DNA from: Polynucleobacter sp. 31A-FELB | GTDB lineage: Bacteria > Pseudomonadota > Gammaproteobacteria > Burkholderiales > Burkholderiaceae | Reading direction: 5' to 3' | DNA: 64,000 nucleotides | Assembly (NCBI RefSeq): GCF_018882405.1 | Contig: NZ_JACVOO010000002.1 | Span: 1 to 64,000, forward strand | Part shown: piece after piece, positions 1 to 15,400 of the stretch | How positions within the stretch are numbered: position 1 is the stretch's first letter | Layout: every line of letters begins with the position of its first letter | Program-made: the position numbers and the translations under genes | Notes under the pieces: generated by a model | Told to the model about the DNA's origin: nothing | The model's database searches: none | The model's input: only the letters and a program-made list of their open reading frames with translations

Positions 1-150
1 GGGTCACAATCATTTGGTTCTCACACGCTCGAGACGAGAGTGGCTCTTTAAGCCAGGCGTAATAGCCACTGTGGTGGACTCGCAAAACCTTGCACATGGT
101 GCGGATGGCATGCTCATGCTGGTACTTTTTGATGAAGGCGTACTTTAACC
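1..150 (-). mobile_element. IS3-family transposase OrfB, partial (5' part only)
   Basis: On the minus strand the frame KYAFIKKYQHEHAIRTMCKV, continuing into HSGYYAWLKEPLSSR, is the typical start of an IS3-family OrfB (the HTH_21 region before the rve DDE integrase). It runs off the left edge, so the catalytic domain is not visible. It overlaps the end of OrfA in the -1 frame, the usual IS3 arrangement in which OrfAB is made by frameshifting. The family is clear; the exact IS name cannot be given from this piece. Confidence 0.85.
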
Positions 151-426
151 GGACTCCTTGGCAAAGTACGCGGCGGCCTTTTTTAGGATGTCGCGCTCTT
201 CGGTAACCCGCCGCAGCTCCGCCTCCAGTCTTTTAAGCTTAGCCGTTTGATCATCCCCCACTAGACGCTGCTCAGCTGGAATGCCATATTTATTAACCCA
301 GGCATACAGGCTATGGGGTGAGGTGCCCAGCCTAGCAGCCACATCTCGAACACCAAAACCCCGTTCAACTACCTGTTTGACTGCCTCTAACTTGAACTCT
401 TCAGTAAACCGTCTTCTTGTACTCAT
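145..426 (-). CDS. IS3-family transposase OrfA (HTH_Tnp_1)
   Basis: A 93-residue protein beginning MSTRRRFTEEFKLEAVKQVV, the standard OrfA helix-turn-helix start, followed by the conserved GTSPHSLYAWVNKYG recognition helix and a C-terminal leucine-zipper-like segment (LKRLEAELRRVTEERDILKKA). The start is fixed by a strong Shine-Dalgarno AGGAGG (minus strand, 433-438) seven bases before ATG. OrfA binds the IS ends and, fused to OrfB by frameshift, forms the active transposase. It looks intact. Confidence 0.92.
   Translation of the reverse strand: MSTRRRFTEEFKLEAVKQVVERGFGVRDVAARLGTSPHSLYAWVNKYGIPAEQRLVGDDQTAKLKRLEAELRRVTEERDILKKAAAYFAKESG
178..184 (-). promoter_or_regulatory. Programmed -1 frameshift heptamer A-AAA-AAG in the IS3 element
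   Basis: Near the OrfA 3' end the minus strand reads A AAA AAG across the codons CTA-AAA-AAG (residues LKK). This is the classic slippery heptamer of IS3-family elements. Slipping back one base enters the OrfB frame, which stays open from there into KYAFIKKYQ. Position and frame both fit production of the OrfAB fusion transposase. Confidence 0.75.
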
Positions 427-471
427 GACACACCTCCTAATAGACTAAATATTAGGCTAGAAAGTGTCTAT

Positions 472-645
472 AGAAGTGGTAGCGATTCAGGTGTTGTAAT
501 CCCTCTACGAAATAAATTTACCCTAACGGTCCAGAATGCAAATGATGTATTTATTCTGACTGTAGTTGTTAAAAATACGCTGACTAATGAAGTGCTGGTA
601 AAAAAATCTGCAGCTCTTTGGGAGTACATTAAAGTAGTAAATTAA
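472..645 (+). pseudogene. 3' remnant of an unknown gene truncated by the IS3 element
   Basis: An open frame runs out of the IS end into a 57-codon stretch (RSGSDSGVVIPLRNKFTLTV, later FILTVVVKNTLTNEVLVKK) ending at TAA 643-645. It has no start codon or ribosome binding site of its own, and its codon use looks coding. The outer IS end probably lies at about 460-472, where TAGACACTTTCTAG is read on the minus strand, but no terminal inverted repeat partner is visible. I do not recognise the family; alternating hydrophobic and polar residues suggest beta structure. Confidence 0.55.
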
Positions 646-672
646 AACCTACCCTGAAATATGTGATGAGCC

Positions 673-687
673 GTCGTTTAAAACGAC
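673..687. repeat. Palindrome P1, GTCGTTTAAAACGAC
   Basis: First of seven copies of a 15-base palindrome (GTCGTTT, one centre base, AAACGAC) found between 0.67 and 6.93 kb. This copy is perfect and lies in the non-coding stretch between the IS-truncated gene and tRNA tail A. It could be an operator or part of a mobile-unit boundary. Confidence 0.7.
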
Positions 688-730
688 ATTGCGAGTAACT
701 ATGGTTGGTGGCTTGGGCAGGAGTCGATCT

Positions 731-845
731 AATTTTGACCGATGCATATATGTTTAGAGCTTGCGCACAGTTTTTACACGCTATCCTAACTTTCTGATTG
801 CGCTCGAAATTTTGACCGAGGCATTTTGTAAATTTTGCGCACAAA
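731..845 (+). repeat. Degenerate direct repeat of about 40 bases, two copies
   Basis: AATTTTGACCGATGCAT at 731-747 recurs as AATTTTGACCGAGGCAT at 808-824, and each is followed by a TTGCGCACA-type block (about 761-769 and 836-844). The repeats lie in the 354-base non-coding gap (646-999), where nothing coding is supported. Function unknown. Confidence 0.5.
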
Positions 846-903
846 ACGTCTGGGGTGACGTAAACTATTGAAGCCAAAGCGAAAGCGGTCTATCGGAGGA
901 TAT

Positions 904-948
904 TTGAAAATCCTTGTGTCGGTGGTTCGATTCCGCCCCGGGCCACCA
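904..948 (+). repeat. tRNA 3'-end fragment A (tRNA-Phe-like)
   Basis: TTGAAAATCC (anticodon loop with GAA and the 3' anticodon stem) leads into a perfect T arm (GGTGG-TTCGATT-CCGCC), the acceptor 3' strand CCGGGCC, a discriminator A and CCA. This is the 3' half of a bacterial tRNA-Phe. The 5' half is absent: the sequence before 900 has no matching acceptor, D arm or 5' anticodon stem, so it is a remnant and not a gene. Such tails are what site-specific integration into tRNA genes leaves behind. Confidence 0.8.
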
Positions 949-956
949 AGAATCTC

Positions 957-983
957 AATAGCCCACTTGTTGGGCTATTTTTA
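957..983. terminator. Type 1 intrinsic terminator after tRNA fragment A
   Basis: AATAGCCCACTTGTTGGGCT followed by ATTTTT forms a stem AGCCCA/TGGGCT with a T tract. A-rich sequence on the other side lets it work in both directions, so it can also end gdhA transcription, whose stop codon is at 1000. The same terminator recurs after fragment C. Confidence 0.8.
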
Positions 984-999
984 TTGTTTTCGAACCCTC

Positions 1000-2343
1000 C
1001 TAAATTACGCCTTGCGCAAGCATAGCATCCGCTACTTTTACAAAGCCGGCAATATTAGCGCCGTCGACATAATTAATCGAACCATCCGGTCTGGTTCCAT
1101 AAGTCAGACATGATTTATGAATGCCTTGCATAATTTCCTTGAGGCGCAGATCAACCTCTTCTCTTGGCCATGAAAGGCGCATTGCATTCTGACTCATCTC
1201 TAGACCTGAGGTTGCAACTCCCCCGGCATTGCTTGCTTTACCAGGAGCGTAAAGAACGCGATTATTTTCAAATGCTTTTACAGCACCAGCAGTTGATGGC
1301 ATATTAGCGCCTTCAGATACACAAACTAAACCGTTATTAATTAATGTTTGGGCATCAATTTCGTTCAGTTCATTTTGCGTTGCACACGGCATGGCTACGT
1401 CAGTAGGAATGTGCCAAGGATTCGAATTAGGGATAAATTGAGCCCCAATTAATTTTGCAAATTCACTCACACGACCATAGTTAATATTTTTAATCTTCAT
1501 TAGAAGTTCAAGCGATTCAGGGGTAAACCCTTTTTCAATAAATACCGTTCCCCCTGAATCCGAAGCTGACAATACTTTTGCACCATAAGCCATTGATTTT
1601 TCAATAGCGTATTGAGCTACGTTGCCAGATCCTGAAACAGTTACTCGAAGACCTTTTAGAGATTTACCAGTGTGATTGAGCATCTCTTCAGCAAAATAGA
1701 CAGCCCCATATCCAGTTGCTTCAGGGCGAATAAGTGATCCACCAAAAGAAAGGCCTTTACCCGTAAAGACGCAGTCAGATTTGTTAGAGAGCTTTTTCAT
1801 CATACCCGCCATATACCCAACTTCTCTACCGCCCACCCCAATATCACCTGCAGGAATGTCAGTATTTGAACCAATGTGTCTGTAGAGTTCAGAAATAAAT
1901 GATTGGCAAAAACGCATCACTTCATTTGCACTGCATCCTTTTGGATCAAAATCGGATCCACCCTTAGCTCCGCCCATTGGAAGCGTTGTTAAGGCATTCT
2001 TAAAGGTTTGCTCAAAACCCAAGAATTTTAGGATTGACAAGTTGACTGAGGGATGAAAACGAATGCCTCCCTTATAGGGGCCAATGGCTGAATTATGTTG
2101 AATGCGATATCCGCGATTAACTCGAACCGTTCCCTGATCATCAACCCAAGATACTCGGAACATGATGGTGCGGTCAGGCTCAACTAAACGTTCTAGAAGT
2201 CCTTGTTCGGAGTATTTAGGATTTGATTGTAAGAAAGGCCATAGACTTTCCATTACTTCATCTACTGCTTGTAAAAATTCAGGCTGCTCAGGGTTGCGCT
2301 CCTGTACGTAAGACATAAATTCTGTTAAGTGCTTGTATTCCAT
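1000..2343 (-). CDS. gdhA: NADP-type glutamate dehydrogenase
   Basis: At 447 residues it has the same length as E. coli GdhA. It catalyses reductive amination of 2-oxoglutarate with ammonium to glutamate, in the cytosol. The substrate-binding block GPYKGGIRFHPSV (residues 88-100) and the catalytic lysine in LPMGGAKGGSDFDPKG (Lys127) are intact, followed by a Rossmann coenzyme domain with VTVSGSGNVAQYA. It lies within the repeat-rich accessory region, with tRNA tail A beyond its 3' end and palindrome P2 66 bases upstream of its start. Use of NADP and not NAD is inferred from overall similarity. Confidence 0.95.
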   Translation of the reverse strand: MEYKHLTEFMSYVQERNPEQPEFLQAVDEVMESLWPFLQSNPKYSEQGLLERLVEPDRTIMFRVSWVDDQGTVRVNRGYRIQHNSAIGPYKGGIRFHPSVNLSILKFLGFEQTFKNALTTLPMGGAKGGSDFDPKGCSANEVMRFCQSFISELYRHIGSNTDIPAGDIGVGGREVGYMAGMMKKLSNKSDCVFTGKGLSFGGSLIRPEATGYGAVYFAEEMLNHTGKSLKGLRVTVSGSGNVAQYAIEKSMAYGAKVLSASDSGGTVFIEKGFTPESLELLMKIKNINYGRVSEFAKLIGAQFIPNSNPWHIPTDVAMPCATQNELNEIDAQTLINNGLVCVSEGANMPSTAGAVKAFENNRVLYAPGKASNAGGVATSGLEMSQNAMRLSWPREEVDLRLKEIMQGIHKSCLTYGTRPDGSINYVDGANIAGFVKVADAMLAQGVI

Positions 2344-2408
2344 GATTTGCAGCCCAAGTTAATAATTTATTAGTATCGTTTTTTTTGTGTTTCTTTGAAA
2401 GGGGTAGC

Positions 2409-2423
2409 GTCGTTTAAAACGAT
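2409..2423. repeat. Palindrome P2, GTCGTTTAAAACGAT
   Basis: One base from perfect. It begins a composite unit of about 107 bases (palindrome, a TTTAGAG-containing spacer, tRNA tail, type 2 terminator) that recurs at 5490-5596. It also sits in the upstream region of gdhA. Confidence 0.7.
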
Positions 2424-2435
2424 AATTTAGAGCTT

Positions 2436-2481
2436 GAGTTTGGCAGCCTGTAGCCTTGGTTGATTCCGCCAAGGGCCACCA
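2436..2481 (+). repeat. tRNA 3'-end-like fragment B
   Basis: Ends with GATTCCGCCAAGGGCCACCA, matching the T loop, T stem, acceptor strand and CCA of the other fragments. The 5' flank differs from tRNA-Phe. Here the arms are CCTTGG and CCAAGG, which pair perfectly, whereas other copies pair through GGCCC/GGGCC, so the hairpin is kept although its bases differ. Confidence 0.7.
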
Positions 2482-2487
2482 AGAAAC

Positions 2488-2516
2488 ACCAAAACCACCT
2501 TCGGGTGGTTTTTTTC
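2488..2516. terminator. Type 2 intrinsic terminator after fragment B
   Basis: AAAACCACCTTCGGGTGG followed by a run of T. It lies between divergent genes (gdhA leftward, transporter rightward), so it terminates no gene visible here and appears to be carried along with the tRNA tail. Confidence 0.8.
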
Positions 2517-2569
2517 ATTTTTACTCTCCACATTCACAGTATTCGACGCTTTTGGACTTTGCCTGCGCT

Positions 2570-2584
2570 GTCGTTTTAAACGAC
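2570..2584. repeat. Palindrome P3, GTCGTTTTAAACGAC
   Basis: Perfect copy, ending 30 bases before the ATG of the cation transporter gene, which is the right place for an operator. Confidence 0.7.
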
Positions 2585-2614
2585 AAGCCCACTTTCAGTT
2601 ACATTTGTAAATAC

Positions 2615-3442
2615 ATGGAAACCCATCAAAAATCTTCTGTAACTAAAACCATATTCATCGTGCCTGCTATGGATTGTCCATCGGAAGAGCAGATGATTCG
2701 TATGGCATTGGGTTCTTTGGCGATACACGCCATGGATTTTGATATTCCCAATCGCAAATTAATCATTTGTCATAGCGAAGAGCCTAATGTAGTTCTCGAT
2801 AAATTAGTTCCCTTGGGTTTTGGGGCAAAGATTGAAAGCAGCCAAGCGTTAGAAGACTTTGAAATTAAGCTAGCTCAATTAGATGCCGCCAAAGATGCTC
2901 AAGAGCGAAAAGTCCTAATTTGGCTCTTAGCATTAAACGGATTAATGTTCTTCGTTGAGATCATTGTGGGCTGGATTGCTCAATCAGCAGGACTTATCGC
3001 TGATGCTTTAGATATGTTTGCTGATGCCGCAGTCTATATGGTAGCTTTATATGCCGTTGGTAAAGCCGCACAGCACAAGCTCAAAGCCGCTAAGTTGGCT
3101 GGTGTTGTTGAATTACTTTTGGCCACTCTTGCTTTTTGGCGTACAGGTTATCAAATTTACATTGGGGCAATGCCTCAGGCAAATGCCATGATTTGGATTT
3201 CGTTACTTGCTTTGGCGGTTAATGTCACCTGTCTATATCTAATATCTAAACGCAAAAATGATGGCGTTCATATGCGAGCCAGTTATATCTTCTCTGCCAA
3301 TGATGTTTTGGCTAACATAGGCGTGATTATTGCTGGCGTATTAGTTGATTGGCTTAACAGTCCGATTCCCGATTGGATTATCGGTTTAGCTATTGGATTC
3401 TTGGTATTGAGTGGCGCTATTCGGATATTAAGGTTGAAATAG
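2615..3442 (+). CDS. CDF-type cation efflux protein with N-terminal HMA-like domain
   Basis: A 275-residue membrane protein. Residues 10-75 resemble a heavy-metal-associated domain, but the usual CxxC is reduced to AMDCPSEE. About five hydrophobic segments follow, with the cation diffusion facilitator signature AGLIADALDMFADAAVYM, whose aspartates form the metal site. It probably exports Zn, Co or Fe across the inner membrane; substrate unknown. The open frame extends back to 2456 through a tRNA fragment and terminator, which cannot be coding, so the ATG at 2615 is used. No strong ribosome binding site is visible. The stop codon TAG (3440-3442) abuts tRNA fragment C. Confidence 0.8.
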   Translation: METHQKSSVTKTIFIVPAMDCPSEEQMIRMALGSLAIHAMDFDIPNRKLIICHSEEPNVVLDKLVPLGFGAKIESSQALEDFEIKLAQLDAAKDAQERKVLIWLLALNGLMFFVEIIVGWIAQSAGLIADALDMFADAAVYMVALYAVGKAAQHKLKAAKLAGVVELLLATLAFWRTGYQIYIGAMPQANAMIWISLLALAVNVTCLYLISKRKNDGVHMRASYIFSANDVLANIGVIIAGVLVDWLNSPIPDWIIGLAIGFLVLSGAIRILRLK

Positions 3443-3486
3443 AGTCAGGTATCCTCAGCCCTGGTCGATTCCGCCCCGGGCCACCA
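3442..3486 (+). repeat. tRNA 3'-end-like fragment C
   Basis: GAGTCAGGTATCC, then a T-arm-like block, CCGCCCCGGGCCACCA. It is nearly identical to fragment D, apart from a lost T in the T loop. It starts on the last base of the transporter stop codon and runs into a type 1 terminator. Confidence 0.75.
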
Positions 3487-3494
3487 AGATTCTC

Positions 3495-3520
3495 AATAGC
3501 CCACTTGTTGGGCTATTTTC
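3495..3520 (+). terminator. Type 1 intrinsic terminator after fragment C
   Basis: AATAGCCCACTTGTTGGGCT followed by ATTTTC, the same hairpin as at 957-983. It is correctly placed to end the cation transporter transcript. Confidence 0.8.
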
Positions 3521-3576
3521 TTTTAAGGCTTGGCGGGGTTGGGCGCCTTTAGTCTCGGATAGCCATATCTAGAACC

Positions 3577-3591
3577 GTCCTTTAAAAGGAC
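3577..3591. repeat. Palindrome P4 variant, GTCCTTTAAAAGGAC
   Basis: Perfect palindrome in which both arms changed together (G to C in one arm, C to G in the other) relative to the main form. This suggests selection on the symmetry. Confidence 0.65.
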
Positions 3592-3604
3592 GCGTCAATT
3601 ATTC

Positions 3605-3620
3605 ATCCTTGTGTCAGTCG
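3605..3620 (+). repeat. Short tRNA-Phe-like fragment G
   Basis: ATCCTTGTGTCAGTCG matches the variable loop and T-stem start of fragments A and F (ATCCTTGTGTCGGTGG), then breaks off at palindrome P5. The match is short and could be partly chance. Confidence 0.4.
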
Positions 3621-3622
3621 AT

Positions 3623-3637
3623 GTCGTTTAAAACGAC
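3623..3637. repeat. Palindrome P5, GTCGTTTAAAACGAC
   Basis: Perfect copy located 22 bases beyond the stop codon of the KefB-like antiporter, so here it cannot be an upstream operator for that gene. Confidence 0.7.
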
Positions 3638-3659
3638 GTCTTATGCTTCATATCAATCA

Positions 3660-5363
3660 TTACGAGGTTTGCTTTAGCTCCTTTAAAACTTCCATATAGA
3701 AACGGTTCGCCAATTCATCCTCAGGAGTAAAAGATTGGCCCCAGCCCTCTTTGTTGTAAATCTCAATTTCTTCGCTATCTCTTGCGCGAATAAAGATGGC
3801 TATTTTTGGATTCAGTGTTCTTGCTGTTTCTATCATTTTGCTGACATCAATAGAGTCTTGAGAGGCAATAACTAAGACGGCAGCATTGGCAATATGCGCT
3901 TGAATCAACACAAATGGATCTGATGCATCTCCCGACACTGCTGGGGTTCCAATTTTTCTTAAATCTTCAACAATCGAGCGATCCTTTTCCGCCACTACAC
4001 AAGAGACGCCCTGAGCTCTTAATTTTTCTAGAACTCTTTTGCCAACTCGACCATGACCCACAATCACGACTTGCCCAGTCAGTAATGATTGCTGAGTAGA
4101 TGAAGGCAGCAATGCGAGAGGATCCATGCGTTGATCTAATTCTCTTGCAAGAGATGAGCGCTTTCTGGCCCAGTTGATCAATGGCGAAATACTGTCAAAC
4201 AGAAACGAGTTGAGAGCGATTGAAATGATGGCGCCTGCAAGTATTAAGCTATAAGCCTCATTTGGAATGAGGTTCATGGCTAAACCCATCCCTGCCAAAA
4301 TGAAAGAGAACTCTCCAATTTGAGCCAAGCTGATACCAACAGTTGCGGCTGTGTTTAGTGGGTATCTGAAAAGTAAAACAAGGGCCATGGCTGCCAATGT
4401 TTTTCCAACCAGAATAATAAAAATTACAACAAGTAGCTTCATGGGCTCTTGCCATAATATTTGGGGGTCAAATAGCATGCCTACCGATACGAAGAAAAGC
4501 ACAGCAAATGCATCTCTAAGGGGCAAGGATTCGTCCGCGGCTCTTTTGCTTAATTTAGATTCACCGAGCATCATGCCTGCAAAAAATGCTCCCAAAGCAA
4601 AAGAAACATCAAATATCTTTGCAGCCAAGAAAGCGATGCCAATAGCAGAAGCGATCACTGCTAAAGTAAATAATTCTCTAGAGCCATTTTTTGCTACTAG
4701 CCATAAGATTTTGGGAAGCAATCTTTTACCAATAACAAGCATGAGCACTATAAATACGCTCACTTTGGCCAGTGTGATACCTATTGGCTTAAGTAATTCA
4801 GTGAAATTACCACTGGTGGCGTTGGCTCCATCATGCTGAAATAATTCAGCTAATACAGGGAGAAGAACTAGGGCCAAAACCATGACCAAATCTTCGACAA
4901 CAAGCCAACCAACTGCAATTTTGCCGTTGGAGGTATCCAAAAGACCTTTATCTTCTAATGCACGTAAGAGGACAACCGTACTTGCAACCGACAGACTCAA
5001 GCCAAATATAAGTGAGCCCAATAAAGACCATCCCCAATTGGTTGCAACGAAAAAGCCGAGCGCCGTCGCAACTAACATCTGAAAAAGTGCGCCTGGAATG
5101 GCAATTTTTTTCACGGCCATCAAATCGCCAATAGAAAAATGTAAGCCAACACCAAACATGAGTAGCATCACCCCAATCTCAGCCAATTGCATCGATAGAC
5201 CAACGTCAGCAACAAATCCTGGCGTAGCTGGGCCAATAAGCACGCCTGCGAGTAGGTAACCTACCAATGGCGGCATTTTTAAATAAGTAACAGCAAACCC
5301 CAGAATCAGCGCCAAGCTAAATCCAGCGGCAAGAATGGCGATAAGGCTTACATCATGTGGCAT
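3660..5363 (-). CDS. KefB/YbaL-type monovalent cation:proton antiporter (CPA2) with RCK domain
   Basis: The 567-residue protein has about twelve membrane segments in residues 1-390 (Na/H exchanger fold, with GYLLAGVLIGP and FALGAFFAGMMLGES) and a C-terminal RCK/TrkA-N Rossmann domain starting VVIVGHGRVGKRVLEKLRAQG. It would exchange K or Na for protons at the inner membrane, gated by a nucleotide or thiol ligand. Length and domain order match E. coli YbaL better than KefB or KefC. It stands alone between composite repeat units. Ligand and ion are not determined by the sequence. Confidence 0.88.
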   Translation of the reverse strand: MPHDVSLIAILAAGFSLALILGFAVTYLKMPPLVGYLLAGVLIGPATPGFVADVGLSMQLAEIGVMLLMFGVGLHFSIGDLMAVKKIAIPGALFQMLVATALGFFVATNWGWSLLGSLIFGLSLSVASTVVLLRALEDKGLLDTSNGKIAVGWLVVEDLVMVLALVLLPVLAELFQHDGANATSGNFTELLKPIGITLAKVSVFIVLMLVIGKRLLPKILWLVAKNGSRELFTLAVIASAIGIAFLAAKIFDVSFALGAFFAGMMLGESKLSKRAADESLPLRDAFAVLFFVSVGMLFDPQILWQEPMKLLVVIFIILVGKTLAAMALVLLFRYPLNTAATVGISLAQIGEFSFILAGMGLAMNLIPNEAYSLILAGAIISIALNSFLFDSISPLINWARKRSSLARELDQRMDPLALLPSSTQQSLLTGQVVIVGHGRVGKRVLEKLRAQGVSCVVAEKDRSIVEDLRKIGTPAVSGDASDPFVLIQAHIANAAVLVIASQDSIDVSKMIETARTLNPKIAIFIRARDSEEIEIYNKEGWGQSFTPEDELANRFYMEVLKELKQTS

Positions 5364-5489
5364 GAATCTAACCCCTTAATACTGTTGGAATTCTTAACAT
5401 CACAATAATAGTTCACTGCATCAAAAGGGGTATTTGTGTTGTTGAGCTAACTCAATGGTTTGGATAATGATTAAAGGATCATATGAAAT

Positions 5490-5504
5490 GTCGTTTTAAA
5501 GGAC
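5490..5504. repeat. Palindrome P6, GTCGTTTTAAAGGAC
   Basis: One mismatch from symmetric. It starts the second full composite unit (5490-5596), which parallels 2409-2516 in order and spacing. Confidence 0.65.
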
Positions 5505-5516
5505 AGTTTAGAGTTA

Positions 5517-5562
5517 GAGTCAGGCATCCTCGGCCCTGGTTCGATTCCGCCCCGGGCCACCA
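5517..5562 (+). repeat. tRNA 3'-end-like fragment D
   Basis: GAGTCAGGCATCC, then GGCCCTGGTTCGATTCCG and CCCCGGGCCACCA. The TTCGATT T loop and CCA end are canonical, and GGCCC can pair with GGGCC. It lies in the intergenic gap upstream of the acetyltransferase. Confidence 0.78.
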
Positions 5563-5568
5563 AGAAAC

Positions 5569-5596
5569 ACCAAAACCACCTTCGGGTGGTTTTTTA
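5569..5596. terminator. Type 2 intrinsic terminator after fragment D
   Basis: AAAACCACCTTCGGGTGG followed by TTTTTT. Like the copy at 2488 it precedes a gene and does not follow one: the antiporter gene to its left is transcribed away from it. Confidence 0.8.
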
Positions 5597-5619
5597 TTGC
5601 CTTGTGTAAAACTACCATC

Positions 5620-6144
5620 ATGAATATTGATGAATATCGTATAGCAACAGTCAAAGATGTTCCAGAGTTGGTGAGCTTGATAAACAACTCGTATCGTCCC
5701 AACGGTTCTGAGGCTGGCTGGACTCATGAGTCAGAACTCATAGAGGGCGACAGAATTAACCCACAGCAACTTACTGATCTGCTTGATAGAGATGGGTCGA
5801 CAATATTGCTCGGCCTAAACAAAGGCGAGATTGTTGCCTGCGTGAATATCAATGAAGAGTCAGGGGCGATTTATTTGGCCATGCTAACTGTTAAGCCGTC
5901 ATGCCAAAATTTTGGGTTGGGCAAAGAAATGCTCCAGCTCGCAGAAGAGTATGTCGAGAACCAATATGAGTCTTCAACACTTAATTTGTTTGTCATTTCA
6001 GAGCGTAAGGAGTTGTATGATTTTTATTTACGCAGAGGCTATCAATCCACGGAAATAATCTCAGACTATCCAGCAAATGCTGGGGTTGGTATTCCCAAGG
6101 TCGTTGGACTTAAGTTGGCACTATTAACAAAGCAAATTTCCTAG
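5620..6144 (+). CDS. GNAT-family N-acetyltransferase
   Basis: A 174-residue protein with the acetyl-CoA binding motif A, LTVKPSCQNFGLGKEMLQLA (Q/R-x-x-G-x-G type), and a C-terminal LYDFYLRRGYQ strand typical of GNAT enzymes. The acceptor substrate is unknown. The ATG at 5620 (MNIDEYRIATVKDV) is preferred over an upstream TTG at 5602 that is too close to the terminator. The stop TAG (6142-6144) overlaps tRNA fragment E. Confidence 0.85.
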   Translation: MNIDEYRIATVKDVPELVSLINNSYRPNGSEAGWTHESELIEGDRINPQQLTDLLDRDGSTILLGLNKGEIVACVNINEESGAIYLAMLTVKPSCQNFGLGKEMLQLAEEYVENQYESSTLNLFVISERKELYDFYLRRGYQSTEIISDYPANAGVGIPKVVGLKLALLTKQIS

Positions 6145-6174
6145 GCCCTGGTTCAATCCCGTCTCGAGCTATCA
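6141..6174 (+). repeat. Degenerate tRNA 3'-end fragment E
   Basis: CTAGGCCCTGGTTCAATCCC, then GTCTCGAGCTATCA. It is the most decayed copy (CCA has become TCA and the acceptor strand is changed) but keeps length, order and its following terminator. It overlaps the acetyltransferase stop codon. Confidence 0.6.
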
Positions 6175-6178
6175 AGAA

Positions 6179-6210
6179 ATACCAAAACCACCATCGGGTG
6201 GTTTTGGTAT
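6179..6210. terminator. Long-stem type 2 terminator after fragment E
   Basis: ATACCAAAACCACC pairs with GGTGGTTTTGGTAT, a 14-base stem. It ends the acetyltransferase transcript and is symmetric enough to act in both directions. Confidence 0.75.
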
Positions 6211-6244
6211 TAAGATTAATATAAGTTAATTACCGGTGATTCAT

Positions 6245-6397
6245 ATGAAAAATTTGCTAATTGCCTTCGGCTCAGCCTTACTCGTTTTGGCCTTAAGCGG
6301 CTGTCTTGCGAGCACAACATCGCCCGTGGGTGTGAATTGCGACTATAGCCAAGGCAAGCCATTATGGGAGTTGCCTCTTGATTGTCAGGGTAGATAA
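6245..6397 (+). CDS. Small lipoprotein, 50 residues
   Basis: MKNLLIAFGSALLVLALSGC is a lipoprotein signal peptide with lipobox LSGC (Cys20). The mature part is 31 residues, with two further cysteines (NCDYSQ, LDCQGR). No family recognised. The TAA stop (6395-6397) lies on the first bases of tRNA fragment F, the third gene in this region to end exactly at a tRNA tail. No clear Shine-Dalgarno is seen. Confidence 0.6.
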   Translation: MKNLLIAFGSALLVLALSGCLASTTSPVGVNCDYSQGKPLWELPLDCQGR

Positions 6398-6435
6398 TCC
6401 TTGTGTCGGCGGTTCGATTCCGCCCCGAGCCACCA
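6394..6435 (+). repeat. tRNA 3'-end fragment F (tRNA-Phe-like)
   Basis: ATAATCCTTGTGTC, then a perfect T arm GGCGG-TTCGATT-CCGCC, then CCGAGCCACCA. It shares the variable-loop sequence CTTGTGTC with fragment A, so the two come from the same tRNA type. Unlike A to E, no hairpin terminator follows. Confidence 0.78.
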
Positions 6436-6491
6436 AGAAGGACGCAAATTACTAGACTTCTATAAGATGGATGAAGCCGGGGGGAATAACG

Positions 6492-6881
6492 ATGCCATTG
6501 GTAAGAATTGATTTAAGCAAAAAATACTCTGAGGGCTTTGCACGGCAGGCCGGGGACATTGTCTATAACGTAATGCGAGAACAAATCAACGTTCCTGAAG
6601 ATGATAAGTTCCAGATTATCACTAGACACGATGTATCGGAATTTAATCTTCCAAAAAGCTATTTGGGCATTGAATATTCAGAAGGGATCATTTTTATTCA
6701 GGCGATCATAAGCTTTGGCAGATCCACAGATCTTAAAAAGAAGCTATACAGAGCCATTTGTGAATCCCTAGTTACAAATCTTCAAGTCAGAGCTCAAGAT
6801 GTCTTTATCAACTTACTTGAGGTGAACAAAGAAAATTGGTCATTTGGTAATGGTGAAATGCAATATGCCGATAAGGCTTAA
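6492..6881 (+). CDS. Tautomerase-superfamily protein
   Basis: A 129-residue protein. With the ATG at 6492 it begins MPLVRIDLSKKYSEGFARQ, giving the N-terminal catalytic proline of the 4-oxalocrotonate tautomerase superfamily after Met removal. The length fits the larger Tautomerase_2-type members. A purine-rich GGGGGGAATAA lies 7 to 17 bases upstream and supports this start over 6471. Substrate unknown. It is the first of three co-directional genes (6492-8431). Confidence 0.8.
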   Translation: MPLVRIDLSKKYSEGFARQAGDIVYNVMREQINVPEDDKFQIITRHDVSEFNLPKSYLGIEYSEGIIFIQAIISFGRSTDLKKKLYRAICESLVTNLQVRAQDVFINLLEVNKENWSFGNGEMQYADKA

Positions 6882-6913
6882 GTATCCCTAGATATTCTGC
6901 CTCACCAGAAAAA

Positions 6914-6930
6914 TTGTTTTAAACGACAAT
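6914..6930. repeat. Palindrome P7 (decayed), TTGTTTTAAACGACAA
   Basis: One arm changed from GTCG to TTG, but outer bases extend the symmetry (ATTG/CAAT with one mismatch). It ends 29 bases before the haloacid dehalogenase start, mirroring P3 and the cation transporter. Confidence 0.55.
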
Positions 6931-6959
6931 ACAAAGTCAGACTGATAACAGGGGGCTGC

Positions 6960-7643
6960 ATGTATAAGCTTATCGCTTTTGATGCTTATGGAACATTATT
7001 TGATGTGTATTCCATGGGAAAGTTGGCAGAAGATTTATTTCCTGGCAATGGCCAGGCCTTTGCTCTAATGTGGCGTGATCGCCAAATTGAGTACACTCGC
7101 CTAGTCACCATGAGCGATCCTAATCCTGGTGGCAGTAAGCACTACCTTCCGTTTTGGGAATTAACAATTCGTTCATTGCGTTATGTATGTAAGCGCATGA
7201 ACTTAAATCTCACTCCTGACTACGAGAAGCGGTTGATGGATCAGTATGCCAAGCTCACTGGTTTTGAAGATAGTCTGCACGTTCTTAAGTCAATAAAAAA
7301 TAAAAGTATTTCCACGGCAATTTTGTCCAATGGTAGTAGAGAGATGTTGGCGACGGTAGTTGAGAGCAATGGTCTTGCAGCTTACCTGGATCAGGTCGTC
7401 ACTGTTGAGGATGTGCGATTATTTAAGACCGCCCCTCAAGCCTACGAGCTTCTTTTAAAAGCGTTTCCAGTTAAAAAAGAAGAGGTTCTTTTTGTATCGA
7501 GCAATGCTTGGGATGCACTAGCAGCAAAGTGGTTTGGTTTTGATGTATTTTGGGTTAATCGGCTTGGGCACCCCTTTGAGGAGATTGGTGAGAAGCCAAA
7601 CTATGAAGGCAGTTCGTTAAGCAACGTTTTAGAAGTTATTTAG
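6960..7643 (+). CDS. Type II haloacid dehalogenase (HAD superfamily)
   Basis: A 227-residue protein with the L-2-haloacid dehalogenase residue set: nucleophile Asp8 in FDAYGTLFD, Arg39 in MWRDRQIEYTRL, Ser123-Asn124 in ILSNGS, Lys156 in FKTAPQAYELL, and SSNAWD (residues 180-185) in place of the phosphatase aspartate pair. It would hydrolyse 2-haloacids to 2-hydroxyacids. Some family members have other substrates, so haloacid use is an inference. A GGGGG purine tract lies just before the start. Confidence 0.87.
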   Translation: MYKLIAFDAYGTLFDVYSMGKLAEDLFPGNGQAFALMWRDRQIEYTRLVTMSDPNPGGSKHYLPFWELTIRSLRYVCKRMNLNLTPDYEKRLMDQYAKLTGFEDSLHVLKSIKNKSISTAILSNGSREMLATVVESNGLAAYLDQVVTVEDVRLFKTAPQAYELLLKAFPVKKEEVLFVSSNAWDALAAKWFGFDVFWVNRLGHPFEEIGEKPNYEGSSLSNVLEVI

Positions 7644-7678
7644 AGCCTTTAAGTCTTGAGACGTAAAATGAATTCTTA

Positions 7679-8431
7679 ATGCCAATTGAGTTCATTCAGC
7701 GTCTAACAAGCGTACAGCGATCCCCCAAAACCAACATTCAATTGGGCGCCTACATGGCGTTTGTGGCGGGCGCTGTAAATGCCGGTGGTTTCTTGGCTAT
7801 TTCTCGTTATACATCTCATATGAGCGGGATTATTTCCGCAATTGGCGATGACCTTGCTCTGAATGACTTCATTGCGGTTTTAGGCGGCATCTCACTTTTG
7901 CTCTCATTTCTATTTGGCGCAGCTACAACAGCCATCATTGTTAATTGGGGCCATAGAAGAAAAATTCATAGTGAGTTTGCCTTGCCGCTATTCCTTGAGG
8001 CTGCTCTGTTGTTAGTCTTTGGTTTGGTAGGTGCTAACCTCAATTTATATCTACCTTTAACCATTCCAGCAATCGCCCTTCTGCTGTGTTTTGTGATGGG
8101 CTTACAAAATGCTATTGTCACTAAAGCTTCTAAAGCAGAAATTAGAACAACTCATATGACGGGCGTCATTACCGACATTGGAATAGAGGTAGGGAAGTTA
8201 ATTTATTGGAATAAATCTACGCAAGCCAATGAAAGTGGATACGTCAGGGCGAATAGGGATAAATTAAAAACCCATTTATTTATTTTCGGAATGTTCTTGG
8301 TTGGCGGAATTATTGGAGCGCTTAGCTTCAAAACGGTCGGCTATATAGCGGTGATACCACTCTCCTTTTCTTTGGTGTTAATAGCCAGTTTGCAGATGTA
8401 TCGGGACATTAGAGTGCTAATAAAGGGCTAG
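7679..8431 (+). CDS. YoaK-family membrane protein (DUF1275)
   Basis: A 250-residue protein with about six membrane segments. The region GAVNAGGFLAISRYTSHMSG near residues 31-50 and a repeat-like GLQNAIVTKASKAEIRTTHM, then TGVITDIGIE, are hallmarks of DUF1275. Biochemical function is not established. It follows the dehalogenase by 35 bases on the same strand. Confidence 0.88.
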   Translation: MPIEFIQRLTSVQRSPKTNIQLGAYMAFVAGAVNAGGFLAISRYTSHMSGIISAIGDDLALNDFIAVLGGISLLLSFLFGAATTAIIVNWGHRRKIHSEFALPLFLEAALLLVFGLVGANLNLYLPLTIPAIALLLCFVMGLQNAIVTKASKAEIRTTHMTGVITDIGIEVGKLIYWNKSTQANESGYVRANRDKLKTHLFIFGMFLVGGIIGALSFKTVGYIAVIPLSFSLVLIASLQMYRDIRVLIKG

Positions 8432-8483
8432 CTTTTTCGCATTTGGATGCGAATAGGATGCGGCCTGTACTGCAATGATAAAA

Positions 8484-8511
8484 AATAAGGGAGGCAAAAG
8501 CCTCCCTTATT
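8484..8511. terminator. Bidirectional terminator between yoaK-like gene and katG
   Basis: AATAAGGGAGGC pairs with GCCTCCCTTATT around an AAAA loop. It separates two convergent genes and has A/T-rich flanks on both sides. Confidence 0.8.
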
Positions 8512-8535
8512 GATAACGGATTACTATTAAATTAA

Positions 8536-10686
<2,151 letters not shown>

Positions 10687-10821
10687 TTAGATCTCCTTGT
10701 AGGTAAATCATTTTTGCTTGGTTAGCCTGACCTATTCAGACTAACTGATAAAGCTATAAACAGTCTGTTTGGTTAGCAGTTTTTTATTCGCCCGCCATGA
10801 ATGTGATGAGAATGTTCATAT

Positions 10822-10935
10822 TTAGCCCTTCCGGTTGGGCTCTGGCCGCAAAATGGTCAGTAGGTCCCGTTCATATTGATGGCTGAGGAAGTACAAGCCT
10901 TCTGCAATTACAGCCAATCTGGTTTGAATCTTCAT
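10822..10935 (-). CDS. Possible small protein, 37 residues
   Basis: MKIQTRLAVIAEGLYFLSHQ, continuing YERDLLTILRPEPNRKG. It has a good Shine-Dalgarno (AAGGGAGTT, 5 to 13 bases before ATG). It lies upstream of katG on the same strand, in a 480-base stretch (10687-11166) that otherwise shows no gene. No family known to me; it could be a real small protein, a leader peptide or chance. Confidence 0.4.
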   Translation of the reverse strand: MKIQTRLAVIAEGLYFLSHQYERDLLTILRPEPNRKG

Positions 10936-11166
10936 TTTTAACTCCCTTCCTTGTGTGTTGTGATGGGATCATCTTGTTCTTTGTTAAATGATTCGTCCAA
11001 TGAATTAATATGAACTTATTTATCGAATAAATAGATAATAAAATTGAGCGATATGAATTTGATGGTGTCATAGGACATCCTCAGTCTCGCAGGTAAATCA
11101 GCATTGATCAAGCCAATATCAAAAGTTACCATCAGGTAATTCGGGCCTGAGCCCCTAGACAAGAAC

Positions 11167-11571
11167 ATGAGCCAGCCCCCATTGATTTCCGTAAGCTACA
11201 TCAGCAAGGCAACCCAGGACATGGGTGTCTTGGCATTGATGCGCTTGACTGATCAGGCTGCGCAACTCAATCAAAAGTTGGGGCTATCCGGAGTGCTCTT
11301 TTATGAAAATCAACATTTTGGTCAGATATTAGAGGGGCCTCGTGCAGAGGTCACAAAAATATGGGAAAAAATTCAGCGAGACCCACGCCACCACCAGGTG
11401 CGCCTGTTGAATATGAAAGAGATCGAGGAAAGAAGTTTTCCCGCCTGGTCAATGCGCTTCTTCTTGGCAAAAGAAATCATTGCAAAGATGCCTAACCTTA
11501 CTGGCGTATTGGACGGGCTGCCCGAGCATGATGTTGAGCTATTAAGGCTAATGCGAACAGCGGCAGAATGA
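11167..11571 (+). CDS. BLUF-domain blue-light photoreceptor
   Basis: A 134-residue short-type BLUF protein. The residues that bind FAD and form the photocycle hydrogen-bond network line up in spacing with PixD: Tyr11 (SVSYISKA), Asn35 (LNQKLGLSGVLFY), Gln53 (FGQILEG) and Trp94 (FPAWSM). There is no fused output domain, so it must signal through a partner protein. The next genes encode an exported SRPBCC protein, an exporter and a peroxiredoxin, but a functional link is only suggested by position. Confidence 0.93.
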   Translation: MSQPPLISVSYISKATQDMGVLALMRLTDQAAQLNQKLGLSGVLFYENQHFGQILEGPRAEVTKIWEKIQRDPRHHQVRLLNMKEIEERSFPAWSMRFFLAKEIIAKMPNLTGVLDGLPEHDVELLRLMRTAAE

Positions 11572-11630
11572 GAGCGAGCACCCTTTGGTGATGAGTATGA
11601 GGCGGCCGTGTTAGCCACTAAACTACTTGC

Positions 11631-12200
11631 ATGAAGCAACTTCTATACTTTTTTCTGATTGCAGCGTTTGGGGTTTCCTTTGCGCAAGAGGTATCTAATT
11701 CTTACGACTTAAAAGTTGCCGTCACCAGGGCAGGCGATCGCTTTCAGGTAAATGCAAGCTATGAGGTGCCGATTAACGTATGCGAAGCTTTTGCATTTAT
11801 TACTGACTATGAGGGCGCTAAAATTTTGCCTGGAATAGTGGAGTCAAAAGTGCTCTCTAGATCAGGCAATAAAGTGAAGGTTGCTCGCTTGCTCGAAGAA
11901 AGAATTTTATTCATTCCATTTGAGATGCGATCTGAATTGGAGTTCGTAGAGCTGCCCAATAAAGCATTGCTCTTCGAGCAGGTAAGTGGAGACACCAAGT
12001 ATTACAAGGGGAGCTGGCGGCTCTTGCCTGAAAAAGATTTCACTACGTTTAAATACGATGCACAGGTTGAGCCAAACTCTCTTGTGCCATCGGCGGTGAT
12101 CGAGTTTTTTATCAAAAACATCGTGCGACGACAGTTTGAGTCAATGGCTGAGTTGGCATCTCAAAGAAAGCCCCCTCAAAAAACGGCATGTAAGTTGTAA
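11631..12200 (+). CDS. Exported SRPBCC/START-like protein
   Basis: A 189-residue protein with signal peptide MKQLLYFFLIAAFGVSFAQE (cleavage near residue 18). The rest resembles the polyketide cyclase/RatA-like SRPBCC fold: VNASYEVPINVCEAFAFITD, then LPGIVESKVLSRSGNKVKV. Such domains bind hydrophobic ligands; the ligand here is unknown and the periplasmic location is inferred. Its stop overlaps the start of the next gene (TAATG), so the two are translationally coupled. Confidence 0.75.
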   Translation: MKQLLYFFLIAAFGVSFAQEVSNSYDLKVAVTRAGDRFQVNASYEVPINVCEAFAFITDYEGAKILPGIVESKVLSRSGNKVKVARLLEERILFIPFEMRSELEFVELPNKALLFEQVSGDTKYYKGSWRLLPEKDFTTFKYDAQVEPNSLVPSAVIEFFIKNIVRRQFESMAELASQRKPPQKTACKL

Positions 12201-12934
12201 TGAGTGAGCTGATTTTTCAGAGCATATTGCTTGGCTCATTAGGGCTCATTGCTGGAGTCTTGGGTAGTGTCTTGGGGTTTGGGACAACCATCATATTGAT
12301 GCCCGCCCTGGTTTACTTTTATGGGCCCATGCAAACGATTCCGGTAATTGCTATTACTGCGACTGTTGCAAATATTTCTAGAATATTTTTATGGTGGCGA
12401 GTCATTGATTGGAAGGCTTGTGCGGTTTACAGCCTAACTGCAATACCTGCCGTAGTTCTTGGGGCACATACTCTTATATCCTTAAATGAGCGTCTAATTC
12501 AATTAGTGCTCGGCATTTTTTTGATTAGCCTCATTCCAATTCGTCGATGGATGCGACGACAGCAATTCTATTTAAAGTTATGGCAGTTGAGTTTAGTCGG
12601 TGCCTTTATTGGCTATCTCACAGGAATTGTAGCGACCACCGGAGCCATTAATACACCATTCTTTTTGGCCTATGGATTAAGTAAGGGCGCCTTCTTGGGA
12701 ACGGAGGCAGCCAGCACCCTCTCTATTTTATTTGCCAAAGGAATTACTTTTCATCAGCTAGGCGTCTTAAATTTGACGGCCATTATTCAGGGGCTGTTAA
12801 TTGGCAGCACAGTCATGGCTGGATCAATACTATCTAAACGCATTGTGCTGTCTTTGCCTGAAAAAAGCTTTATGTTCCTAATGGAGTTAGTGATGTTGAT
12901 CTCGGGAATCTTGATCATCGGAATGGCGTTCTAG
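12200..12934 (+). CDS. TauE/SafE-family sulfite/anion exporter-like protein
   Basis: A 244-residue protein with about eight membrane segments. The N-terminal GVLGSVLGFGTTIILMPALV and the second-half GIVATTGAINTPFFLAYGLS are the duplicated TauE signature. Family members move sulfite, sulfoacetate or related organosulfur anions. The substrate here is not known. It overlaps the preceding SRPBCC gene by one base. Confidence 0.85.
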   Translation: MSELIFQSILLGSLGLIAGVLGSVLGFGTTIILMPALVYFYGPMQTIPVIAITATVANISRIFLWWRVIDWKACAVYSLTAIPAVVLGAHTLISLNERLIQLVLGIFLISLIPIRRWMRRQQFYLKLWQLSLVGAFIGYLTGIVATTGAINTPFFLAYGLSKGAFLGTEAASTLSILFAKGITFHQLGVLNLTAIIQGLLIGSTVMAGSILSKRIVLSLPEKSFMFLMELVMLISGILIIGMAF

Positions 12935-12971
12935 CACCTTCTTTCAAATTTTGCTTTAGAGTAATGTGAAC

Positions 12972-13532
12972 ATGACTAATCTCAATCAACTCCCCACTGA
13001 TTTACCGATTCCTCAGGATGATGGGGCCGCAGCTCACTTAGTAGGTATGCGCTTGCCCGCTATCTCATTGGGCACGACTAATGCTAGCCAATTTAATCTT
13101 GGTGAGAGCAAAGGCCGCTTAGTGATTTACTGTTATCCGATGACAGGCCAGCCCAATGTTCCGCTACCGGAAGGGTGGGATCAAATACCTGGAGCAAGAG
13201 GGTGTACGCCACAAAGTTGTTCCTTTAGAGATCACTATCAAGAGTTACGCGCCTTAGGTGCAGATGTTGTTGGTCTCAGCGTGCAGTCTACCGAATACCA
13301 AAAAGAGATGGCGGATCGATTGCACTTACCTTTTCCGGTATTAAGTGACGCAGGCTATCAACTTCAGCAAGCTTTGCACTTGCCAACTTTTGTTGCTGCT
13401 GGAATGACTTTATTAAAGCGCATCACTTTGATTGTGAATGATGGCGTGATTGAAGCTGTGCACTACCCAATATTTCCGAGCGATAGCGATCCGGCTTGGG
13501 TGATGGACTACCTAAAAAATAATCCTGCCTAA
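12972..13532 (+). CDS. BCP-like peroxiredoxin (AhpC/TSA family)
   Basis: A 186-residue thiol peroxidase. The motif PGARGCTPQSCSFRDHYQEL matches the PGCTxExxxFRD site of the Bcp group, with the peroxidatic Cys78 and a likely resolving Cys83. An extra insert (QPNVPLPEGWDQI) precedes it. The ATG at 12972 is chosen over a GTG six bases earlier because TAGAG then sits at normal spacing. Confidence 0.85.
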   Translation: MTNLNQLPTDLPIPQDDGAAAHLVGMRLPAISLGTTNASQFNLGESKGRLVIYCYPMTGQPNVPLPEGWDQIPGARGCTPQSCSFRDHYQELRALGADVVGLSVQSTEYQKEMADRLHLPFPVLSDAGYQLQQALHLPTFVAAGMTLLKRITLIVNDGVIEAVHYPIFPSDSDPAWVMDYLKNNPA

Positions 13533-13533
13533 G

Positions 13534-14085: not shown

Positions 14086-14269
14086 AACTAAGAATTTCTG
14101 AACTGAAAAAGGCAAAACGTCTCTTAAGTAAGGATTAATGCTGTTTTTGTAATAAACCACCTGAATTGACAAGATTATATGTTGCTTTGCAGCAATATTT
14201 GCTTGCAAAGGCCAAAATAAGCTATTAATATGGTGCAGTGCAACAAAATAACCCTTTAAAGGAAATATC

Positions 14270-14827: not shown

Positions 14828-14850
14828 TTAGTAGATAATAGCCACACAGA

Positions 14851-14875
14851 AAGCCCCGTGTAAGCGGGGTTTTTT
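14851..14875 (+). terminator. Intrinsic terminator of the phasin gene
   Basis: AAGCCCCGTGTAAGCGGGG followed by six T residues. Confidence 0.88.
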
Positions 14876-14966
14876 GATGGCGTTACTTCAAAAAAATTTG
14901 AGAAAATAGCCAGATAGCTGTTAAAAATGCATGAAGAGGCGCGCTTTTAATTCTTGAGGAAATAGT

Positions 14967-15332: not shown

Positions 15333-15400
15333 TTTTTGATTGGTAGTCGACTAGGTGTAAGCCAGCATTACACGAATAGCATCACGAGATATACTAGCGA

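Follow-up and report, generated by a model that had tools for sequence, protein, structure and literature searches.

Additive Islands and Related Systems

Genomic islands that grow additively at tRNA genes are already known. Flexible islands of this type have been described in Alteromonas australica (fGI1; PMC4119200) and in Ca. Actinomarinales (fGI1; PMC7771536), and fGI-2 of Ca. Methylopumilus contains repeated copies of the final 20 nt of tRNA-Lys (PMC10872708). As described, these islands have a conserved tRNA target, tRNA fragments at their joints and a content that varies by strain or species. The locus analysed here lies in a window of 64,000 nucleotides from Polynucleobacter sp. 31A-FELB (NZ_JACVOO010000002.1, positions 1 to 64,000) and shares these traits: a tRNA target, gain or loss at one place and repeats of tRNA fragments at the joints were all found. 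Its units are of two kinds, cassettes closed by a cassette-type tail (C) and elements closed by a stretch of genuine tRNA-Phe that begins at the anticodon loop (P). As far as these descriptions go, the Polynucleobacter array differs in having mostly one-gene cassettes, a diverged half-site of its own at the joints, breakpoints within ~26 bp, and many cassettes with a leading terminator and palindromes. The fragments are probably, at roughly 0.73, the joints of a cassette array growing at the 3' end of tRNA-Phe. The array is a variant of the tRNA-anchored additive islands; it functions in the manner of integrons without being one.

Integrons, of which PMC4119200 gives a description, are a second system to compare. 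As in integrons, the array is anchored and its cassettes tend to hold a single gene, with a site immediately behind the stop codon; the genes mostly share one orientation, toxin-antitoxin cassettes occur, and some relatives have an integrase that runs divergently from the anchor. Unlike integrons, the array is anchored at a tRNA gene, its sites derive from a tRNA and its cassettes seemingly bring their own terminator; furthermore, no integron integrase scored above the cut-off among the proteins tested. Tycheposons combine a tRNA anchor, a tyrosine recombinase and cargo, and have been proposed to be phage satellites (PMC10872708, PMC11389934). Compared by description, C cassettes differ from them in that no recombinase was found and in being ~1 kb rather than 4-200 kb long, while the combination of a tRNA anchor with an own recombinase is true of those P elements that carry the integrase families c15 and c16. 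The P elements are also similar to the tyrosine-integrase tRNA islands of the Islander type, with the integrase by the restored tRNA and the displaced fragment at the other end, as these are characterized in PMC4383910; C cassettes, with no integrase found and a common block that starts at the T-loop, are different from them.

Few mobile elements are visible behind the changing gene content of streamlined freshwater bacteria. A locus found across the genus that exchanges ~1-kb cassettes at a defined site, with a 25-bp junction, makes additive-island growth directly testable.

The Tails and Their Anchor

Six tails are present on the plus strand at the positions given in the initial annotation, five of them clear and one (E) decayed. 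Tail A (904-948; tRNA-Phe, anticodon loop to CCA), whose end sequence recurs in other species, is the right end of an element truncated by the contig start, and tail F (6394-6435) is the final tail of the array; both are of the P type. The C type is represented by tail B (2436-2481; arms CCTTGG / CCAAGG, 3 mismatches in the 22-mer), tail C (3442-3486; core from 3465, where identity to the relative G044 begins) and tail D (5517-5562). The assignments of A, C, D and F are based on the sequence together with a pattern match. Tail E (6141-6174), a decayed C type, falls under the threshold of the 25-base pattern; window positions 6139-6439 align at 83% with positions 10491-10789 of locus L051 in the relative G078, which has an intact tail at the aligned place (10504). 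The proposed resemblance to tRNA-Phe holds for A and F; B, C, D and E, which have a recurring own sequence upstream of the T-loop, are more than worn tRNA-Phe. The 25-base pattern, with at most 3 mismatches, has 4 matches in the 64 kb, on the plus strand only, versus 0.00 on average over 100 shuffles, which rules out a chance origin. A genuine tRNA inside the window is likewise ruled out, since ARAGORN detected neither a tRNA nor a tmRNA in the whole window.

An intact tRNA-Phe had been predicted to the left of the window. It does exist, on another contig: tRNA-Phe(GAA) is located near the end of contig C36 (156311-156386), contig C25 begins with the window, and G044 bridges both. The flank of the tRNA gene (locus L010, 4882-6390) is 99.93% identical to positions 1-1510 of locus L151 in G044, and window positions 3465-7080 are 98.9% identical to, and collinear with, L151 1486-5089. 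Both matches overlap in G044 by 25 bp, which constitute the tail core; therefore, cassettes were gained in the source genome or lost in G044 exactly there. Presence and absence of cassettes at one place, the block, is thus seen between relatives (G000 versus G044). The tRNA-Phe gene, which appears to be single-copy, opens the tail run in most mapped loci, with exceptions in G098, G106 and G031. Tails spread over the genomes with no link to tRNA genes were not encountered: most tails form one run at tRNA-Phe in the completed genomes that were mapped, and those away from tRNA-Phe loci (G098, G106, G031) are clustered.

Anatomy and Gene Content of the Cassettes

Tails were extracted from 31 Polynucleobacter genomes selected for long contigs and a high number of tails, yielding 166 C and 36 P tails. 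C cassettes have a median length of 1,004 bp and an integron-type layout of mostly one-gene units beside a fixed site, 91/167 having a single ORF of at least 60 aa. Their ORFs mostly point toward the tail (229/305). A stop codon lies 16-36 nt ahead of the core in 100/135 and exactly 22 nt ahead in 26, and 25 of these 26 stops are TAG, the first letters of the tail. Terminators follow 145/166 C and 27/36 P tails, as compared to 21/332 and 4/72 control windows; cassette counts were deduplicated for overlapping loci, and terminator counts use the deduplicated tail list. The terminator after each CCA belongs to the following cassette and not to the tail.

The features of the window are on the plus strand unless stated otherwise. 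Cassette 1 starts with a terminator-like hairpin and T run (959-982; from the sequence and the terminator counts) and carries, on the minus strand, a gene of the glutamate dehydrogenase family (1000-2343; PF00208, 2.7e-84), for which no relative was detected among 46 loci searched; the palindrome GTCGTTTAAAACGAT (2409-2423, 1 mismatch) lies between this gene and tail B. Cassette 2 consists of a terminator-like hairpin recognized in the sequence (2491-2515), the palindrome GTCGTTTTAAACGAC (2570-2584) and a gene for a cation efflux (CDF) protein (2615-3442; PF01545, 5.3e-16), whose start was chosen by hand, the mechanical ORF being 2456-3442. Genes of this kind also occur outside arrays, at 89% and as the gene only, in G106, G010, G082, G083 and G104.

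Downstream of tail C, the palindromes GTCCTTTAAAAGGAC (3577-3591) and GTCGTTTAAAACGAC (3623-3637) enclose a segment resembling tRNA-Phe (3592-3622; ATCCTTGTGTC..GT..CGAT). Sixteen such inter-palindrome segments have a mean alignment score of 19.5 against tRNA-Phe, versus 12.65 (sd 2.5) for shuffled ones, with only 2/16 above all 300 shuffles. Cassette 3 encodes, on the minus strand, a Kef-like Na/H exchanger with a TrkA-N domain (3660-5363; PF00999, 3.2e-52; PF02254, 4e-24), followed by the palindrome-like GTCGTTTTAAAGGAC (5490-5504). The Kef-like cassette is the first after tRNA-Phe in G044 and G027; outside arrays, Kef-like genes at 66-72% are found in several genomes. The GNAT acetyltransferase gene of cassette 4 (5602-6144, mechanical ORF; PF13673, 1.7e-10) has a relative between two tails in G013. 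Cassette 5 contains a small lipoprotein-like ORF of 50 codons (6245-6397) and, both being read by eye, a similar small ORF is situated directly after tRNA-Phe (L010, 6425-6580).

Exchange of Cassettes between Relatives

Some of the cassettes recur in related species, in a different order but with the same ~25 bases at the joints. The CDF cassette (2491-3534) has an exact copy of 1,044 nt in G098 (gyrA identity 88%) and one of about 100% identity over 1,017 nt in G078 (gyrA identity 91%); it lies between tails in G078 and G130. A gene order common to all relatives was not found, as none of 205 tail junctions (150+150 nt) is identical between sampled genomes; G044, which is outside the sample, is collinear over 3465-7080. 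Among 228 tail pairs that are alike upstream (123 C-C, 102 P-P and 3 mixed), none is alike downstream at 80%, and among 112 pairs alike downstream, none is alike upstream; the pairs are not independent and represent 37 upstream families. In column profiles, similarity sinks at +26 and at 0 to what random pairs show, that is, it stops at a common block of ~26 bp. The suggestion that cassettes use a tRNA tail as recombination site is supported for C tails, where similarity between relatives breaks within the common block on both sides, and is partly supported overall.

In 218 genomes from other genera of the family, 0 to 4 matches to the 25-mer occur, some of which, among the matches listed, are other tRNAs. 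The exact C-tail pattern is present in 48 stretches of a genome-contig collection, from Polynucleobacter or from MAGs titled uncultured beta proteobacterium, Burkholderiaceae or Alcaligenaceae.

Recombinases and the Probable Growth of the Array

P-type tails close elements, some of them integrase-bearing and 8-11 kb in size, beside tRNA-Phe or another tail, with the integrase next to the restored tRNA and the displaced tRNA fragment at the far end. Two integrase families were found, both in P-type elements: c15, which adjoins tRNA-Phe in several relatives, and c16, a small XerD-like recombinase. Repeated integration into one tRNA locus, as originally envisaged, is in agreement with these elements and is partly supported overall. 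The integrase expected beside the array exists in some relatives, but was not found at the array itself (L010 and the window start, with ORFs checked). Run over 519 array ORFs, the profiles of c15 and c16 returned 10 entries: 9 are followed by a P tail and 1, a duplicate from an overlapping locus, by no tail; none of the hits to these profiles is in a C cassette. Other integrase types were covered by a PF00589 search of 17 genomes, a search that is blind to c15. In NCBIfam, which was applied to c15, c16 and one IMG/VR protein besides the element neighbours, c15 has no match, and c16 reaches 49.8 bits against the integron integrase TIGR02249, with a cut-off of 265. XerC/XerD was discarded as the array enzyme: the XerC-like gene ~30-40 kb downstream in mapped genomes is a syntenic chromosomal gene.

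On the favoured reading, a C cassette starts at the common block TTCGATTCCGCCCCGGGCCACCAAGAA, usually with a terminator next and sometimes one or two 15-bp palindromes, continues with usually one gene and closes with a half-site of tRNA origin (about TAGGATYRGRCATCCTCGGCCCTGG), to which the next block copy is joined. Strand exchange would take place inside the block by a site-specific recombinase, and cassettes may move as circles or via exchange between arrays. Every insertion would rebuild the tRNA and provide it with a terminator, and most new cassettes would presumably enter close to it. P elements, of which some carry an integrase next to the tRNA, insert into the same gene with homology beginning at the anticodon loop; they may provide C cassettes with the enzyme in trans. 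A further step, which we propose only tentatively and with the odds somewhat against it, is a dedicated system in which the recombination site is made up of the C half-site plus the 26-bp block, cassettes are mobilised in trans (perhaps by c16 or c15), tRNA-Phe is the entry site and leading terminators guard the tRNA from read-through, the whole having evolved from a tRNA-targeting integrase system. If true, this would be a second, independent route to an integron-like platform, starting from a tRNA attachment site.

Alternatively, integrase-bearing islands could have integrated serially into tRNA-Phe, followed by integrase deletion and decay, so that the tails are scars. The P elements with c15 and c16 at the locus fit this scenario, as do an IMG/VR contig with the same 45-nt core at both ends and the decay of the core, which grows with distance from the tRNA (rho 0.239; 4/2000 permutations). 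This trend, which speaks for the favoured reading as well, is small and comes largely from the final tail (1.58 mismatches on average, versus 0.62). It is nonetheless unlikely: the 166 C tails have in common, upstream of the T-loop, a sequence peculiar to them, which is not random wear, the C cassettes are ~1 kb long and mostly consist of one gene ending near the tail, and the same cassettes recur beside other neighbours.

Homologous recombination after DNA uptake, shuffling cassettes at tails, terminators and palindromes while the tails are inert, is slightly less probable still. Tails and terminators are indeed near-identical repeats on one strand, and such recombination could also account for the 28/228 upstream-alike pairs that reach at least 60% downstream and for the CDF cassette in G098, where exact identity extends 48 nt beyond CCA, into the terminator. 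However, similarity is lost at the edges of the 26-bp block on both sides in many families, whereas breaks inside genes and in longer homologies would be expected too. An array growing by cassette insertion at the 3' end of tRNA-Phe is the reading that we retain.

Phage Sequences and RNA Properties

Exact matches to C tails are absent from IMG/VR, which is weak evidence against packaging as a phage satellite. The idea of a filamentous-phage satellite was dropped on the same ground and because the palindromes, with 1 mismatch allowed, are absent from the six IMG/VR contigs in which the P core occurs.

That the tails are kept for a role in RNA, as a tRNA-like 3' end plus terminator on cassette transcripts, is very improbable, for although the tail often begins at the stop codon with a terminator after it and consensus-like tails form a pair of hairpins (z -1.63 and -2.31), the fold of two natural tails does not surpass that of shuffles (z -0.20 and 0.05), pairing in hairpin 1 is above shuffles at 3/6 pairs only, and the right arm of hairpin 2 hardly varies, so that it permits no judgement. 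For recombination of the tails as folded single strands, in the manner of the attC sites of integrons, the pairing signal is weak and partial. In positions 1-16000, no known RNA family matches the array above its gathering score; by E-value, Phe_leader (0.11) and YrlA (0.5) overlap tails, both under their gathering scores. The sole strong RNA-family match in this region is a glycine riboswitch, away from the array.

An array of cassettes at tRNA-Phe

The locus is an integron-like cassette array anchored at tRNA-Phe. On reading the sequence, all six tRNA 3'-end fragments of the initial annotation, here called tails A to F (904-948, 2436-2481, 3442-3486, 5517-5562, 6141-6174 and 6394-6435), are found where it had placed them, and all on the plus strand. 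With up to 3 mismatches allowed, a tail pattern of 25 bases matches the 64-kb window four times, whereas 100 shuffles yield 0.00 matches on average. Tail B was recovered with a looser pattern; tail E is decayed, and the aligned place in the relative G078 holds an intact tail. The genome (2.24 Mb, 48 contigs, the window opening contig C25) has nine places with the tail pattern: four in the window, tRNA-Phe near the end of contig C36, three on contig C42 (two at its start, one at its end), and one tRNA-Leu.

A tRNA search of the window found none. The intact tRNA-Phe had been expected to its left, and this is borne out by the relative G044 (gyrA 94% identical), in which the tRNA-Phe flank of C36 and part of the window are contiguous. 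Positions 1-1510 of the G044 stretch are 99.93% identical to the C36 end, to just past tRNA-Phe, and positions 1486-5089 match window 3465-7080 at 98.9% identity; the 25-base overlap of the two alignments is the tail core. The cassette of a Kef-like exchanger directly follows tRNA-Phe in G044. If our contigs join in the same way, a small gene, a methyltransferase, further genes, tail A and two cassettes, those of the glutamate dehydrogenase and of the CDF (cation efflux) protein, lie between tRNA-Phe and the Kef-like cassette in 31A-FELB, with IS sequence at both contig ends in this interval. As read from these alignments, the difference is a gain in 31A-FELB or a loss in G044, at the core.

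Contig C42 carries further material of this kind. At its start (L011, 1-2407), adjoining the tmRNA gene, lie another two tails, with palindromes, and an outer-membrane-like gene. Its end is apparently another island: a tRNA-like 3' part lies there on the minus strand, along with an integrase of 486 aa (PF00589), a degenerate 5' part that resembles tRNA-Phe, and a P-like tail (pieces at 2362-2400, 2552-4012 and 6358-6400 of the fetched stretch L012).

Tail types and distribution

The 23-base core (at most 2 mismatches) is present in 142 of 151 congeners, at 0-13 places per genome with tRNA-Phe itself counted. The 40 stretches fetched come chiefly from genomes rich in such places or assembled in long contigs; a few are from genomes with a single place. 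The tail sample covers 31 genomes, our own loci included, and after removal of identical junctions and tails with short flanks it comprises 166 C tails, 36 P tails and 30 tRNA genes. P tails, to which A and F belong, are tRNA-Phe sequence from TTGAAAATCC onward. C tails, the cassette type, have only (T)TCGATTCCGCCCCGGGCCACCAAGAA in common with tRNA-Phe, and their upstream part has its own, less strict sequence, approximately TAGGATYRGRCATCCTCGGCCCTGG.

Small tail clusters also occur away from tRNA-Phe, in G098 (L072), G106 (L030 and L031) and G031 (C1:1323813-1325283). No tRNA is near those of L072 and L030, and a tRNA-Ser is near that of L031; we read these clusters as moved array pieces or secondary sites.

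In 218 genomes of other genera of the family, 0-4 matches to the 25-mer were found among the matches listed. The exact C-tail pattern retrieved 48 stretches from the species collection, titled as Polynucleobacter or as beta-proteobacterial, Burkholderiaceae or Alcaligenaceae MAGs. These range searches used one tRNA-specific sequence, and similar arrays on other tRNAs are beyond their reach.

Cassette anatomy

The 167 C cassettes (duplicates removed) have a median length of 1,004 bp, the middle half spanning 646-1,697. By mechanical calling, 91 hold one ORF of at least 60 aa and nine hold none. Of 305 ORFs, 229 are directed to the tail. In 100 of the 135 cassettes with a tail-directed ORF the stop codon lies 16-36 nt before the core; the distance is exactly 22 nt in 26, and 25 of these stops are TAG. 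Terminator-like hairpins occur within 70 nt after CCA in 145/166 C tails, 27/36 P tails and 23/30 tRNA genes, the respective control windows giving 21/332, 4/72 and 4/60. Array genes include BrnT, YoeB/ParE-like and HTH proteins, a lipid A acyltransferase-like protein, a patatin and a methyltransferase, and 183 of 290 ORF clusters are singletons.

After deduplication 162 palindromes GTC[CG]TTTWAAA[CG]GAC remain, with the variable position complementary in 160, the exact form being held by only 58/167 C cassettes and 21/28 P elements. In 31A-FELB, each of the seven exact places of GTCGTTTWAAACGAC is close to tRNA-Phe or to tails, on C25, C36 or C42. Successive palindromes are often spaced 45-46 nt apart, and there is a weak signal of resemblance between the segment enclosed by paired ones (window 3577-3637; L011, L026, L027 and others; 16 distinct segments) and the part of tRNA-Phe running from anticodon stem to T-loop. 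In the half-site, pairing in the first hairpin exceeds shuffles at three of six positions (3, 25 and 0 of 500 shuffles doing as well) and is uninformative in the second. Folding z-scores of five sequences are -1.63, -2.31, -0.20, 0.05 and -1.70, and we do not argue from these values for recombination of single strands.

Breakpoints, polarity and cassettes shared between species

Among 20,301 pairs of C or P tails, similarity over the 200 nt upstream is 80% or more in 228 (123 C-C, 102 P-P, 3 mixed; 7 within one genome); pairs inside one family are not independent, and 37 upstream families have more than one member. Downstream, none of the 228 is alike at 80% and 28 reach 60%. Conversely, of 112 downstream-alike pairs none is alike upstream at 80% and six reach 60%. 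Position-wise, similarity sinks to that of random pairs at +26 in the upstream-alike set and at 0 in the downstream-alike one.

The initial annotation had proposed a strain comparison for gain or loss of genes with their tails, and no shared fixed order emerged: none of the 205 sample junctions recurs identically (150+150 nt) in a second genome. The method can in principle detect conserved junctions, since G044, outside the sample, shares three with the window. Core mismatches increase with rank from the tRNA (rho 0.239, 4/2000 permutations; 24 loci, 141 tails), a trend owed mostly to the last tail. This polarity and the G044 comparison fit cassette entry near the tRNA.

The CDF cassette (window 2491-3534) gives a sign of recent movement: it is letter-for-letter identical in G098, of which gyrA is 88% identical, and the identity extends 48 nt past CCA into the terminator. 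G078 (gyrA 91%) matches it at about 100% over 1,017 nt, with a longest exact run of 344 nt from the start used; the match as a whole breaks off right after CCAAGA. Two tails flank the CDF gene in G078 and G130 and the GNAT gene in G013; a Kef-like gene comes first after tRNA-Phe in G027 and G044. For the glutamate dehydrogenase gene, the loci searched gave no relative.

Integrases and recombinases

P elements of 8-11 kb contain c15, a phage-type integrase (phrog_1, 9.5e-34) in which Pfam detects only a SAM-like domain, and c16, a XerD-like recombinase of 188-225 aa. In the array ORF set, c15 is represented by four distinct genes (five entries) and c16 by five, spread over four genomes; neither was found in a C cassette. 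In six of 20 stretches around the best c15 matches, c15 lies within 1.2 kb of tRNA-Phe: directly downstream in L064, L065 and L066 (as in L056, fetched earlier), or upstream and divergent in L068, L075 and L083 (as in the earlier L026, 398-1916; L028, 5827-7345; and L032, 97-1286). The divergent layout is like that of integron intI and attI. In the other stretches c15 is part of a run with P tails in some, adjoins tRNA-Met in two and is near neither in several. At a threshold of E 1e-20, 78 of the 151 congeners have a relative of c15, and the family is therefore broader than the tRNA-Phe locus.

The tRNA-near sequence is similar between L026 and L028, which are from two species, and apparently carries its own promoter. 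In L065 (34 and 4106) and L083 (1538 and 7653), a tRNA-Phe 5' half to the anticodon is followed 4-6 kb on by a complete tRNA-Phe with adjoining c15; we read these elements as having displaced the 5' half.

A PF00589 search, blind to c15, matched two proteins inside the arrays of 17 genomes, both c16 in P elements. G134, for example, has an array and only two PF00589 proteins in its genome; therefore, an array can be retained where no enzyme of this type is resident. A PF00589 protein at window 37703-38236 (343-aa frame) is probably the chromosomal XerC, a name given from synteny: in the mapped genomes its counterpart lies some 30-40 kb downstream of tRNA-Phe.

At each end (1-51 and 13015-13065), a 13,065-bp IMG/VR contig (L134) has the P core with CCAAGAATA; it also has a terminator after the left core and a 335-aa recombinase weakly like XerA/XerC. 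By our reading, its ORFs look like those of a filamentous phage.

Relation to known islands

Additive islands with tRNA repeats are already known (PMC10872708, PMC11389934, PMC4119200, PMC2864571, PMC7771536). A literature search on Polynucleobacter and tRNA-Phe found no paper, and the locus may have been described before. Elsewhere in the window, a glycine riboswitch aptamer (15490-15594; 60.3 bits, gathering 32) precedes an ORF at 15731 or 15973.
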